From Actinomycetota bacterium (lineage in GTDB: Bacteria; Actinomycetota; Acidimicrobiia; Acidimicrobiales; JAMCPL01): 64,000 nt of DNA. Made by a program: the position numbers and the translations under genes. Positions 1 through 41,810 of the stretch are shown in pieces (position 1 is the first letter of the stretch; each line of letters opens with the position of its first letter). The notes beneath the pieces are model-generated. The model had not been told where the DNA came from, ran no database searches, and worked only from the letters and a program-made list of their open reading frames with translations. The stretch covers positions 1-64,000 of the forward strand of contig JAMCPL010000021.1 in assembly GCA_023379675.1 (NCBI GenBank), given 5' to 3'.

Positions 1-1204
1 TCTCCCCAGCTGGCCAGATGGTGAGGTATCCCGAGCCGGTCGTGTTCGTCGCGGTGACGGTTGCCGCGACCGCGCTGACCCCCGAGGAGGGGATCCCGTC
101 GACGCCTGCGACCTGGGCGGTGATGGTGCTCTGGGGCGCACCGTAGGTGAACGCGTTGCCGTAGCCGTCCACCGCCACGCAAAAGCTCGTCGTTGGACAT
201 GAGACGGATCTGAGGCCGTAGTAGCCGCTCGGGGCGATCGGGACCGGTGTCCACCAAGAGGTGCCATTCCAGGTGAGCGCGTTGCCATTGTAGTCCACCG
301 CCACACAAAAGCTCGTAGTTGGACATGAGACGGAGTTGAGGGAGTTGTTGTTGTTGTTGGTATCAATCTGTTGACCAAATGACCAAGTGCCGTTGGAGTA
401 AGTGAACTCATAGCCATTAGCATCCACCGCCACACAAAAGCTCGTAGTTGGACATGAGACGGAGGTGAGGCCGTTCGCGTCGATCAAGGCCGGCTGCGAC
501 CAAGAGGTGCCATTCCAGGTAAGCGCGTAGCCGCCGACGTCCACCGCCGCGCAAAAGCTCGAAGAGGGACACGAGACGGAGTCGACGCTGCCGCCGCTCG
601 CGTTGATCGAGGACGTCTGCGACCAAGAGGCGCCGTTCCAGGTAAGCGCGTTGCCATTGTCGTCCACCGCCACACAGAAGCTCGAAGAGGGACACGAGAC
701 GGAGGTGAGGCCGCCGTTCGGGTCGATCGAGACCGGCTGCGACCAAGAGGTGCCATTCCAGGTAAGCGCGTCGCCGCCCCCCACCGCCACACAGAAGCTC
801 GAAGAGGGACACGAGACGGAGGTGAGGCCGCCGCCGTTCGCGTCGATCAAGGCCGGCTGCGACCAGGACGGCCCTGCCGATCCGGCCTGGAGCGTGCCAA
901 GGCCAGCGTTCGCGCTCGGCAGCTTCTCGCCCGCGCAGAAGCTCGGCTCCGGCAAGGCGGCACAGCGAGTGTCGACGAGCCGTACTGGTGTCATCGGGTG
1001 GTAGAGCCCTGAGCCGTCCGGTTCTGTGGTGAGCGGAGCGCCGGCCCTCTGGGCGCTCGGTGCGACCGCCGCGGACGCAACTGTCATGGACGCGATCGGA
1101 ACGTAGAGCAACGGTACGACCATTGCGGTGCCAACAACAAGTACGAGTGCCACGGGTGTGTGATGCCACCGGCGCCTCCGGTGGCGAATCTCATAAGAGT
1201 TCAT
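1..1204 (-). CDS. Secreted actinobacterial repeat protein, 3' end beyond window
   Basis: The gene reads from ATG at 1204 (or GTG at 1213) and runs off the left edge with no stop. A purine-rich AAGGAGGAGGAC lies just upstream. The N-terminus has Arg/His-rich residues, then one hydrophobic segment (LVLVVGTAMVVPLLYV), so it is probably exported or anchored. Next comes PVRLVDTR, typical of the start of a wall-associated domain in actinobacterial secreted proteins. Six repeats follow with the core SVSCPSSSFCVAVD and a trailing LTWNGTSW. After the repeats the sequence returns to GIPSSGVSAVAATVTATN and GYLTIWPAGE, the second half of the same domain. No catalytic domain is visible in the part present. 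The two conserved Cys per repeat suggest disulphides. Function unknown; surface or adhesive role is a guess. Confidence 0.8.
   Translation of the reverse strand, partial: MNSYEIRHRRRRWHHTPVALVLVVGTAMVVPLLYVPIASMTVASAAVAPSAQRAGAPLTTEPDGSGLYHPMTPVRLVDTRCAALPEPSFCAGEKLPSANAGLGTLQAGSAGPSWSQPALIDANGGGLTSVSCPSSSFCVAVGGGDALTWNGTSWSQPVSIDPNGGLTSVSCPSSSFCVAVDDNGNALTWNGASWSQTSSINASGGSVDSVSCPSSSFCAAVDVGGYALTWNGTSWSQPALIDANGLTSVSCPTTSFCVAVDANGYEFTYSNGTWSFGQQIDTNNNNNSLNSVSCPTTSFCVAVDYNGNALTWNGTSWWTPVPIAPSGYYGLRSVSCPTTSFCVAVDGYGNAFTYGAPQSTITAQVAGVDGIPSSGVSAVAATVTATNTTGSGYLTIWPAGE
160..880 (-). repeat. Six ~120-bp in-frame repeats inside the secreted protein gene
   Basis: The segment coding for SxxSFCVAVD recurs at about 180, 303, 432, 550, 673 and 790, a spacing of 117-129 bp (39-43 codons). 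Each unit codes for a Trp/Ser-rich strand, a short linker and the SVSCP-SFC core. A partial seventh unit lies at 840-880. The two groups of copies differ in one patch (PTTSFC on the left, PSSSFC on the right), which suggests two rounds of duplication. Confidence 0.85.
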
Positions 1205-13096: not shown

Positions 13097-14331
13097 GCGC
13101 ACAGGATGGCAGGGATCTTGTAGCGGGCCTAGACGTCGGCGCCCGTGCTATGAATTCACTGGCGGCAAGAGTCGGTTCTGCAAGGGATGGTAGTTCCAAG
13201 GCGGCTGGGGAAGGTGGCGAAGCGCCGGAGTACTTTGAACTATACTTTGGCAATTGGGGGAGTCCGCATGCGGCACTGCAGCGCTCCCGAAACAAGGCCA
13301 GGGGGGGCCAGGGGGCGAAAAGCGCATCTCCGGCTCAGGCATCTCAGGGGGGGCGGTTCTTCTCCTCTGACCTGAGCGTGGACGAGTCCGTCCTTGTCAA
13401 GCAGGCGGGCTACGAGCCAATATCCTTTGTCAAGGGCTCTTGTGTATATCACACTGGAATGCCTTATATTCCTTACGGTCCTGGGTCGTGGGGTGGAGGT
13501 ATGGCTGGTGGAGGTATGGCTGGTGGAGGTATGGCTGGTGGAGGTATGGGACAGGATGCTGGGGGCGGCCAGGGGGCCGGCCTTCCCCAGGGAGGTTTGA
13601 TGTCTGGGATCGGGATGGAGATCCAGATGCTCTCTGCTGCAATGCATAATGCGCGCCGCACTGCTTTGAACCGGCTTGCTGGCGAAGGGCAGCGTGCGGG
13701 TGGGTCCGGTGTGGTAGGCGTGCGGTTGCTCGTCAATCCATTCTCTGTGGGTGAAGCAGGCTCTTCGACGAGTCGTTTCCTAGCTCTGGGTACCGCGATC
13801 AGGCGCCTGCCTGTTCGGGGGGGTACATCCGATGATGCCCGCGGTTCAGGTGCAGGGGTGCAGGGCGCCCAAGTGGTGCATCACAGCAGCGCAAAGGGCG
13901 TGAGCTTCTTTTCCAGCCACCTTTCTGGCCAGGATTTTTACCTTCTTGCCAAGGCGGGTTACATGCCCATCCAGGTGGTGATGGGTTCGTGTGTCTACTA
14001 CGTGCGGACCCGGAGCTTCGCCACAACGGTGGCCAACCGCCAGAACATGGAGATAGAGGCATACACGAGGGCTCTTTACGAGGCGCGTGAACTGGCGATG
14101 GGACGCATGCAGGACGAGGCGGTTTCCTGCGGGTCTGATGGAGTGGTAGGTGTGACCGTGGAGGAGTCGTCCCACGGATGGGGAGGCAGCCATACCATAG
14201 AGTTCTTCGCCATGGGTACCGCCATCAGCCAGGTTGCTCGTGAGCATATCAGGCTTGCTCCCAGGCTGACCGTTCCGCTCGAGGACGAGATAATTCGTAC
14301 GTCCCCTGCCGCAATGCACAAGGAAGGATGA
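13093..14331 (+). CDS. Double YbjQ-like protein 3 with tandem GGGMA loop
   Basis: ATG 13093 overlaps the stop of the previous gene. The 412-aa product has an unrelated 90-residue N-terminal region (EAPEYFELYFGNWGSPHAAL), then domain 1 (FFSSDLSVDESVLVKQAGYE, GSCVYHTG). At the same loop as in paralogue 2 there is a Gly/Met-rich insert of four GGGMA units. Domain 2 starts FFSSHLSGQDFYLLAKAGYM and closes GVVGVTVEESSHGWGGSHT...GTAI. It resembles paralogue 1 most in domain 2. A strong hairpin follows the gene, but the partner gene downstream lies only 185 bp away on the same strand. Confidence 0.7.
   Translation: MSAQDGRDLVAGLDVGARAMNSLAARVGSARDGSSKAAGEGGEAPEYFELYFGNWGSPHAALQRSRNKARGGQGAKSASPAQASQGGRFFSSDLSVDESVLVKQAGYEPISFVKGSCVYHTGMPYIPYGPGSWGGGMAGGGMAGGGMAGGGMGQDAGGGQGAGLPQGGLMSGIGMEIQMLSAAMHNARRTALNRLAGEGQRAGGSGVVGVRLLVNPFSVGEAGSSTSRFLALGTAIRRLPVRGGTSDDARGSGAGVQGAQVVHHSSAKGVSFFSSHLSGQDFYLLAKAGYMPIQVVMGSCVYYVRTRSFATTVANRQNMEIEAYTRALYEARELAMGRMQDEAVSCGSDGVVGVTVEESSHGWGGSHTIEFFAMGTAISQVAREHIRLAPRLTVPLEDEIIRTSPAAMHKEG
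13492..13551 (+). repeat. Four 15-bp tandem repeats coding for GGGMA
   Basis: The unit GGTGGAGGTATGGCT is present four times without interruption; the last ends in GGA. It encodes the glycine-rich loop of YbjQ paralogue 3. Copy number is likely to vary between strains by slippage without breaking the frame. Confidence 0.95.
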
Positions 14332-29707: not shown

Positions 29708-32184
29708 GCAGGCATGGTCACCGAGGGGTGCCCAGGCTGTTCGGTCCGTCAGTGGCCAAACGTGTGCTCGATTACCTTGGTGTCACCTGGCTCATGGTAA
29801 TGGTTGCCAAGCTGAAGCCAGATCTTTCCAGAACGAGCGATCTCCAGATAAAGCCCAGGCAGTCTTTCGTGAAGAGGTTCTTGAGTCGCGAAGGACATAG
29901 CCCGAAACATGAGCGTAGGCTCAAGATAATTGCGGTTGTCGTATTTGCAGCCTTTGGTATACTGCTGGTTCGCCTGTACTATCTTCAGATACTCAACGCG
30001 CCATCTTTCAGCAGGATAGTGGGGTCCAATTCAGTGCGTATAGCTCAAATCTCTCCTCCCAGGGGTCTTATATTGGGCCGGAACGGCACGGTTCTGGCAG
30101 GTGACAGCGTATCGGAGGAAGTTACGCTTTCCCGTAGCGACGTGTCGGCGCATCCCGGTATTGTCGGCAGGCTGGCAGCTGTCGTAGGTGTGCCGGTATC
30201 GCAGATAAGTCAAGCCCTTTCCAGCAATCTGTACACCAGTTACCAGCCTGTTCCAGTCGCCAGCAACGTGCCTATGTCAGTCGTTGTGTATATTAGCGAG
30301 CATCAGCCGGAGTTCCAGGGGGTACAAGTTGTCGCCAAGACGGTGCGGACCTATCCGCTGGGAACCACCGCTGCGCATGTACTAGGTTATCTTGGCCAGA
30401 TTACTCCCAGTGAGTACAAGGTGCTGCAGTCCAAAGGATATTCGGTAAGCAGCCAAATCGGCCAGGCCGGCATAGAGTCGTCCTACCAGAACTACCTTCG
30501 CGGTAAGCCGGGAATACAAAGGTTGGAGGTGAATGCACAGGGTCAGGTGGTGGGCAAGCTGGCGGCAAGTCCTCCGAAGATGGGAGATTCGGTGGTGTTG
30601 AATATGTATGTACCATTGCAGCAACAGGTGGCTGCCGACCTTGCAAACGAGATAACGGCGTTGCGCAAGAGCGGCGAACCAGCAACCGGTGGGGCGGCGA
30701 TTGTGATGGATCCGAACAACGGCCACGTGCTTGCCATGGCATCGTACCCGACCTACAACCCATCTGTATGGACGGGCGGCATCTCCGAGGCTCAGTACCA
30801 GGCTATTACTTCGCCAGCTAACCATGTGCCATTGCTCAACCGTGCTATAGATGGACTGTATACTCCTGGATCGTCATTTAAGCTGGCTACCGCCACCGCC
30901 GCCCTGCAGGATCACCTCATTACGCCGACCTATACATATCACGATACCGGCAGCTTCACCATTCCAGGTTGCCATGTGGGCAAGTGCAGCTTCCACAATG
31001 CTGGCTACCAGGCACTCGGTAATATACAGCTTCCTATAGCGATATCCGCCTCGGACGACTCCTTTTTCTACAACATCGGGTACCAGTTCTGGATGAACAG
31101 AGCCACCTACGGTCTTGATCCGATACAGAAGGTCGCTGCCGAGTACAGCTTCGGCCAACTGACCGGGATCGATCTCCCCGGGGAGAATGTAGGCAGGGTG
31201 GATTCCCCGCAGGTGCGCCAGTACCTACATGCACATTATCCCCAGGCATTCCCCTATGGATCGTGGTACACAGGAGACAACCTGGAGATGGCCTTTGGGC
31301 AGGGCATGACAGTGCTGACTCCCATAGAGATGGCGGATGCGTATGCTACCTTTGCCAACGGAGGCACCCGTTACGCGCCCGAAGTGGCAGGCGCCATAGT
31401 CTCACCGTCAGGCAAGGTGGTAAAGAGAATACCGCCGCTGGTGACCGGCCATGTGAGCTTGCCTTCCTGGATCAGGGGTCCGATGCTTGCAGGATTCGAG
31501 GGGGCTGTCACCAATCCTTTGGGTACCGCTTACTATACTTTCCAGGGTTACCCATACTCCAAGTTTCCTATCGCCGGAAAGACCGGTACCGCCAGCCAGA
31601 ATCCGAAGCCGCCGGTATCGTGGTTTACTGGCTTTGGACCTGTCGGCAGCCCTCGTTACGTAGTATGCGCCGTGATCAATCAGGCTGGATATGGGGCTAA
31701 TGGAGGCGCACCGGTGGTCAGGCAGATATTCCAGTACCTGATGAACCACCCTGTACCCAAGATGATCCTGCCTTTGCCGTCCCCGGTGACGCCGCCTGCC
31801 AAGACGTCATCTTCCACGCCTGTGGTAAAGGTGCCGGTGGCCAGACCTGCTCCTGCAACGGTGGGAGTTTCTACAGGTTCGGCTGGTTCGCTATCAGGCG
31901 GGCCGGTTACCGTGGCTCCATCTTCTACAAGTGGGAGCCCGTCGGGTGGGCCATCCCGCTCGACATCGTCCAGTTCCAGGTCCACTCGCAGTGGCAGTAC
32001 CAGCAGCAGTACGACCACCACCACGTCGCCGACCACCACCACGTCGCCGACCACCACCACGTCGCCGACCACCACCACGTCGCCGACCACCACAGGTTCT
32101 TTATCTACCACCCCGCCCGGCTCTGGCATCGTGGTAGGCGCTGTGCCTGCTTACAAGAGGGAGTCACCATCGCGTTCACCCTGA
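29704..32184 (+). CDS. mrdA: Penicillin-binding protein 2, elongasome transpeptidase
   Basis: PBP2 cross-links peptidoglycan in the elongasome. ATG 29704 overlaps the mreD stop. The 826-aa product has one membrane segment near residues 78-98 (IIAVVVFAAFGILLVRLYYL), a dimerisation/pedestal domain (PPRGLILGRNGTVLAGD), then the transpeptidase domain. The active-site SSFK has its nucleophile near residue 390, the SxN-like element is SDDSFFYN, and KTGTA lies near 626. An extended Ser/Thr/Pro tail of about 110 residues is extracytoplasmic and contains four TTTTSP units. The rodA gene that usually accompanies mrdA is not next to it. Confidence 0.95.
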   Translation: MSRHGHRGVPRLFGPSVAKRVLDYLGVTWLMVMVAKLKPDLSRTSDLQIKPRQSFVKRFLSREGHSPKHERRLKIIAVVVFAAFGILLVRLYYLQILNAPSFSRIVGSNSVRIAQISPPRGLILGRNGTVLAGDSVSEEVTLSRSDVSAHPGIVGRLAAVVGVPVSQISQALSSNLYTSYQPVPVASNVPMSVVVYISEHQPEFQGVQVVAKTVRTYPLGTTAAHVLGYLGQITPSEYKVLQSKGYSVSSQIGQAGIESSYQNYLRGKPGIQRLEVNAQGQVVGKLAASPPKMGDSVVLNMYVPLQQQVAADLANEITALRKSGEPATGGAAIVMDPNNGHVLAMASYPTYNPSVWTGGISEAQYQAITSPANHVPLLNRAIDGLYTPGSSFKLATATAALQDHLITPTYTYHDTGSFTIPGCHVGKCSFHNAGYQALGNIQLPIAISASDDSFFYNIGYQFWMNRATYGLDPIQKVAAEYSFGQLTGIDLPGENVGRVDSPQVRQYLHAHYPQAFPYGSWYTGDNLEMAFGQGMTVLTPIEMADAYATFANGGTRYAPEVAGAIVSPSGKVVKRIPPLVTGHVSLPSWIRGPMLAGFEGAVTNPLGTAYYTFQGYPYSKFPIAGKTGTASQNPKPPVSWFTGFGPVGSPRYVVCAVINQAGYGANGGAPVVRQIFQYLMNHPVPKMILPLPSPVTPPAKTSSSTPVVKVPVARPAPATVGVSTGSAGSLSGGPVTVAPSSTSGSPSGGPSRSTSSSSRSTRSGSTSSSTTTTTSPTTTTSPTTTTSPTTTTSPTTTGSLSTTPPGSGIVVGAVPAYKRESPSRSP
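32013..32084 (+). repeat. Four 18-bp tandem repeats coding for TTTTSP in the PBP2 tail
   Basis: GACCACCACCACGTCGCC is repeated four times exactly. It lengthens the Thr/Ser/Pro-rich extracellular tail in steps of six residues. Confidence 0.95.
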
Positions 32185-41720: not shown

Positions 41721-41810
41721 GCAGGTGGCTGGGCGGATGGTAATGCAGGCGGCCGGCAGGTGGCTGGGCGGATGGTAATGCAGGCGGCCGGCAGGTGGCT
41801 GGGCGGATGG
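41721..41810. repeat. 35-bp tandem repeat, about 2.6 copies
   Basis: A unit starting GCAGGTGGCTGGGCGGATGG occurs at 41721-41755, 41756-41790 and (first 20 bp) 41791-41810 without mismatch; a degenerate piece precedes it. The run lies between the VWA gene and tRNA-Gly and is not coding. Confidence 0.95.

Follow-up and report, generated by a model that had tools for sequence, protein, structure and literature searches.

The window, the whole stretch of 64,000 nucleotides analyzed here, starts at base 1 of contig C21 of genome G000, and its first base cuts a protein-coding gene lying on the minus strand. The gene is seen for 401 codons from an ATG at 1202-1204, upstream of which a GGAGG-type ribosome site can be read directly in the sequence. 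The protein runs from a signal-like N-terminus into the first half of a domain that we call D (this copy being D1), then through a linker with a WSQPALID strand and six units of the SVSCPxxSFC type, and from there into the second half of D1. The six Cys-pair units start at 820, 703, 580, 463, 334, and 208, and Tandem Repeats Finder describes the array with a score of 601, 3.7 copies, and a period of 123. Positions 78-126 of the D1 profile, and everything after them, fall beyond the contig end, and no continuing copy of the 330-base window end was found elsewhere in the assembly. The parts of the gene are as follows.

1..1204, minus strand: protein-coding gene truncated at the contig end, with a signal-like N-terminus, a half-domain, six blades, and the beginning of the second half-domain
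1004..1204, minus strand: N-terminal region as read in the sequence, basic, then long hydrophobic, then Ala/Pro-rich, with a similar region in the related locus L061; a putative Sec-type signal peptide
890..1003, minus strand: N-terminal half of D1, YHPMTPVRLVDTR ... GLGTL, scoring 18.1 bits on its own with the D profile
144..890, minus strand: inserted cassette of 747 bp (249 codons) with linker, outer strand, and six Cys-paired blades, absent from the C26 paralogue in a DNA alignment
821..889, minus strand: linker and first strand, QAGSAGPSWSQPALIDANGG..., to be compared with strand 58-61 of the L061 model; the strand would complete the last blade from outside and so close the ring
704..820, minus strand: blade 1
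581..703, minus strand: blade 2
464..580, minus strand: blade 3
335..463, minus strand: blade 4
209..334, minus strand: blade 5
144..208, minus strand: blade 6, shortened and continuous with the second half of D1
1..143, minus strand: start of the C-terminal part of D1, GAPQSTITAQVAGVDGIPSSG ... GYLTIWPAGE, 48.4 bits alone, with bases 1-127 identical to the end of C26

Elsewhere in the window, short perfect tandem repeats with periods of 15, 18, and 35 bases are present at 13492-13549, 32012-32093, and 41721-41810, respectively.

A preliminary description of the locus had placed six Cys-paired repeats inside a single secreted domain, and the repeats are indeed found there, at fitting coordinates, in this incomplete minus-strand gene. 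To describe the interrupted domain, a profile HMM of D was built from 31 intact copies at loci of the same genome and its relatives. When joined, the two window flanks score 70.2 bits against this profile, compared with 18.1 bits for the N-terminal half and 48.4 bits for the C-terminal half alone, while the highest score among 2000 shuffled versions of the joined sequence is 10.8 bits. The joined score rules out that the flanks are two different domains, a possibility that the preliminary description had itself raised, and its proposal that they are halves of one domain is supported from several further sides. In L061, the sister copy D2 is intact and array-less, and it can be aligned around the point of insertion. 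The window D is interrupted and then cut by the contig end; in seven relatives with the same interruption, D1 is complete. Readings of the window protein as EGF-like, lustrin, or DUF were discarded, all the Pfam matches concerned being under their cut-offs.

Further evidence comes from a gene on contig C26 of the same genome, which has a front of Kelch repeats, recognized by Pfam, followed by the same D as in the window. Aligned at the DNA level, the two genes are identical at 280 of 283 flanking bases, and exactly 747 bp (249 codons) are missing from C26, which is a natural empty site for the array. The gene (L031:773-2941) is of the Kelch-type propeller kind and ends in the D1 of the window without its array; Kelch models match it in the front part only.

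Nested arrays of this sort were found in eight genes of five genomes: two in G000 (the window gene and one on contig C19), one each in G001 and G002, two in G013 (one of them L061), and two in G047. The insertion site is the same in all eight, at about positions 26-36 of the D profile, and the D bearing the array is always the first one seen (8/8). In the seven genes other than that of the window, D1 is completed after the array and followed by intact D2 and D3 copies. Among the segments of D, the loop that takes the insertion varies most in length, ranging over 139 copies from 19 to 37 residues with a standard deviation of 5.3, compared with 3.0 or less for each of the other six segments.

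It could be argued that the interruption of D1 is an artefact in which the assembler joined two genes or two strains, given that the window starts at a contig end and that the last 127 bases of C21 and C26 match exactly, the mark of a graph break at k=127. The continuation of these shared ends was not found in the assembly, and their length would be as expected of an assembly at this k. Against such an artefact, the reading frame is open across both junctions, the exact repeats within the array reach 50 but not 60 bases and are under k=127, and the exact run shared with C26 before the junction is only about 100 bases. Moreover, the same arrangement recurs in seven more genes, of which one belongs to the same genome and the others to four further genomes (six genes). 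We therefore regard an assembly origin as highly improbable, and the nesting of the array as well supported.

The exact sharing of the last 127 bases by C21 and C26 points to a recently copied D module. In a tree of D copies (126 columns, 107 rows), C26 groups with the window and the nested D of L061 falls outside, with support values of 85 and 90 that are of the SH-aLRT kind only. This grouping favors one of two histories: either C26 lost its array, or a domain swap brought D behind a Kelch cargo. Two gains of the array would need an equal number of steps, so that the step count allows either direction between the window and C26.

What the array folds into was addressed with an AlphaFold model of D1 of L061 together with its array, based on an alignment of 11 rows comprising the window and related loci. 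The array of L061 is predicted to form a seven-bladed β-propeller, with block pLDDT values of 81-98 over residues 51-370. The toroid of four-stranded blades is a feature of the model of this relative, and the window's own array would share it. Compared with chains in the PDB, the propeller model matches CylK (7fh7) with a Z-score of 34.9 over 313 residues, a WD40 domain (5yzv) with 31.0 over 269 residues, and G-β propellers with about 30. The halves of D in the same model have block pLDDT values of only 36-64, which means that the two folds are not confidently predicted together. The continuous fold that the preliminary description had expected from structure prediction was therefore borne out in one part, the confidently folded propeller of L061, and not in the other, the D halves.

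At the sequence level, the blades are not readily recognized. No Pfam propeller repeat family (WD40, Kelch, and others) scores above its cut-off in the arrays of the window, L061, or L032, and a PDB sequence search with the arrays gave no convincing relative. Searches of viral contigs returned weak matches to the array only and no relative of D, and a PHROGs search found nothing.

The number of blades agrees with a ring. By profile counts there are seven blades in seven of the eight nested arrays and six in that of the window; both numbers are compatible with a closed ring, propellers being described with four to twelve blades (Afanasieva et al. 2019, PMC6805158). A simpler pattern count over 73 arrays gave seven blades in 30, 14 in four, and 21 in two; because the pattern misses diverged blades, its other counts are partly undercounts, and the profile counts are used instead. 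L103, a copy of L061, was left out of the blade counts and of the D count in the fetched ORFs. As read from the sequences, all eight D1 arrays open with a WSxP-type outer strand (one has WSAR instead), so that the first strand would complete the last blade in the manner of a velcro closure. The six-blade copy of the window would presumably close in the same way, whether as a ring of six blades, as a degenerate one, or as one that is a blade short. A seventh blade may also have been removed by collapse during assembly, although the exact repeats seen do not call for this. In a closed propeller, the two termini are neighbors, which allows the ring to sit in a loop of a host domain.

The preliminary description had further suggested that the array displays a variable surface on a fixed base. 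In its strong form, this would make the array a fast-diversifying recognition surface carried by a conserved base, and the lineage of the window offers some encouragement: between the window and L061 the array is 53% identical, compared with 86% and 76% for the flanks. The blades are homogenized within each protein (identity 0.64 in the window and 0.81 in L061), and those of the two proteins show no positional correspondence, with identities of 0.53 on the diagonal and 0.51 off it. The closest orthologous pair, from G002 and G001 of the same genus, behaves differently. Here, the array has a dN/dS of 0.097 over 283 aligned codons, no higher than in the base (0.130 for the C-terminal part of D1, 0.284 for D2, and 0.157 for D3), and the blades correspond one to one, with identities of 0.83 for matched pairs and 0.44 otherwise. 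Hypervariability as a general rule is rejected by these values, and homogenization, being expected from repeat amplification, does not on its own demonstrate selection for diversity. We therefore consider a hypervariable display clearly unlikely. As originally worded, the suggestion is not supported, since the G002/G001 array is no more variable than its base; what stands is a turnover of blades at a fixed site in the window lineage, where amplification of blades has probably regenerated the array, in keeping with the way propellers are known to evolve (PMC6805158).

D itself follows a copy-number rule. In the window's own genome, 20 of the 25 ORFs with D have exactly three copies (one has two, and four have one, two of these being cut by contig ends). 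The same holds for 51 of 57 fetched ORFs, among which L047 and L171 are counted as one gene (one has two copies, and five have one, three of them cut by contig ends), and for 17 of 21 ORFs in five distant genomes (one with two copies, three with one). Most D triples end only a few residues before the stop codon. When complete D copies were collected, L031, L047, L103, and the window were left out. Sampled over the phylum, D is present in 20 of 296 genomes at an E-value of 1e-6. One triple, at G258:C1:5940504-5942375, is more widely spaced, its copies starting about 720-770 bases apart compared with the usual distance of about 370, which leaves roughly 110-130 residues of something between them.

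None of the profile libraries searched contains D: among 52 copies scanned against Pfam and NCBIfam, no family was hit by two or more of them at an E-value of 0.1. Searches of PDB sequences gave nothing convincing either, the best E-values of the D and array searches, 0.0032 and 0.0053, being judged to be chance. A model of D2 alone reached a pLDDT of 77.8 in its best run, while the four further runs gave 39-46. In the best model, the insertion point lies between strands 7-16 and 47-52. Its best structural match is a fibre tip of the Bdellovibrio protein Bd2133 (8ond_A), with a Z-score of 9.0 and an rmsd of 2.9 over 111 residues. As the tool itself notes a typical chance best of 7-8 for such a search, and as only one model of five was good, the resemblance is a lead only; Bd2133 is not among the PDB sequences matched by the D profile. 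Further matches, to F-BclA, C1q-like, and TNF folds at a Z-score of about 6, are interspersed with hits to carbohydrate-binding modules and to folds of other kinds.

The tip of the Bd2133 mosaic adhesive trimer fibre is described as a β-sandwich that packs as a trimer (PMC10769870), and D occurs in threes. The identity is 10%, however, and the three copies of D lie on one chain rather than on three chains. If the comparison holds, D could be the binding part, a single-chain pseudo-trimer similar to such fibre tips, with the propeller serving as a spacer or shield. Besides the weakness of the match, this assignment of roles runs against the frequent role of propellers as ligand binders, and we consider it rather unlikely.

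We instead favor the following model as the likely one. The repeats would be the blades of a closed β-propeller with adjacent termini, and this ring would plug into a surface loop of a host domain without breaking the host. The plug site would be the long loop that connects strands one and two of D1. In the relatives, D1 leads a row of three tandem copies of D, which would be a β-sandwich domain. D triples are found on many secreted cargoes, including Cys-blade propellers, the Kelch propeller, sedolisin proteases, and others, which makes a common base that binds to the surface or the cell wall the most likely role for them; the propeller would then be the ligand-binding part. The plug-in site shared by the relatives fits a cargo on such a common base better than it fits a hypervariable surface. 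A more far-reaching version, possible but tentative, is that D is an undescribed actinobacterial family that forms a covalent trimer, that is, a homotrimeric fibre tip made from one polypeptide. The socket loop of its first protomer would accept a closed propeller that can be rebuilt blade by blade or removed, and cargo would be swapped in front of, behind, or inside a base that is kept.

The same family of blades is also nested in a second, unrelated host, the catalytic domain of sedolisins, on contigs C20 and C22 of the window's own genome and at L065 of another metagenome-assembled genome; C22 was assigned by eye from its sequence and a propeptide match only. The insertion falls between kumamolisin residues of about 169 and 175-179. 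In all three cases, the ring is opened, as judged by eye, before the SxSC strand, unlike in the D1 arrays, and this difference suggests that the insertion in sedolisins was independent. At L041:4045-8670, L035:4479-9380, and L065:3657-7301, sedolisins carry a Cys-blade propeller within the catalytic domain, just after their AAGD(S/T)GS motif. A literature search on propellers in sedolisin or kumamolisin and on nested or secreted propellers, with most subscription papers outside its reach, returned no description of this arrangement.

Several known systems share features with this arrangement. The array of L061 resembles the seven-bladed propellers of WD40 proteins, G-β, and CylK in its predicted fold, but each of its blades carries a C-x6-C pair, its identity to those chains is about 10%, and it is lodged within a loop of a host domain. 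The sedolisins (S53 family, including kumamolisin) with nested blades share the blade family and differ in having an unrelated host fold and a ring opened at another strand. New propellers arise by amplification of single blades, and near-identical blades mark recent events (PMC6805158); L061 has such blades, and the window does to a lesser degree, except that here the amplification took place at a constant position within a host domain. Insertion of one domain into another is widespread (PMC13114784), and in the integrin α I domain (PMC12422189), too, nesting concerns a propeller and contributes a binding part.

The integrin α I domain is inserted into a propeller, whereas here it is the propeller that is inserted into a domain. 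The loci described here provide a replicated natural case in which a propeller is nested in two unrelated host domains, with a near-identical empty site in the same genome, from which the rules that govern the insertion of a ring into a loop can be learned. They also point to a recurrent three-copy secreted domain that is absent from the profile libraries searched. Finally, profile counts give about 28 to 35 blades for the very long arrays of L113, L114, and L163, which look like chains of four or five seven-bladed propellers.
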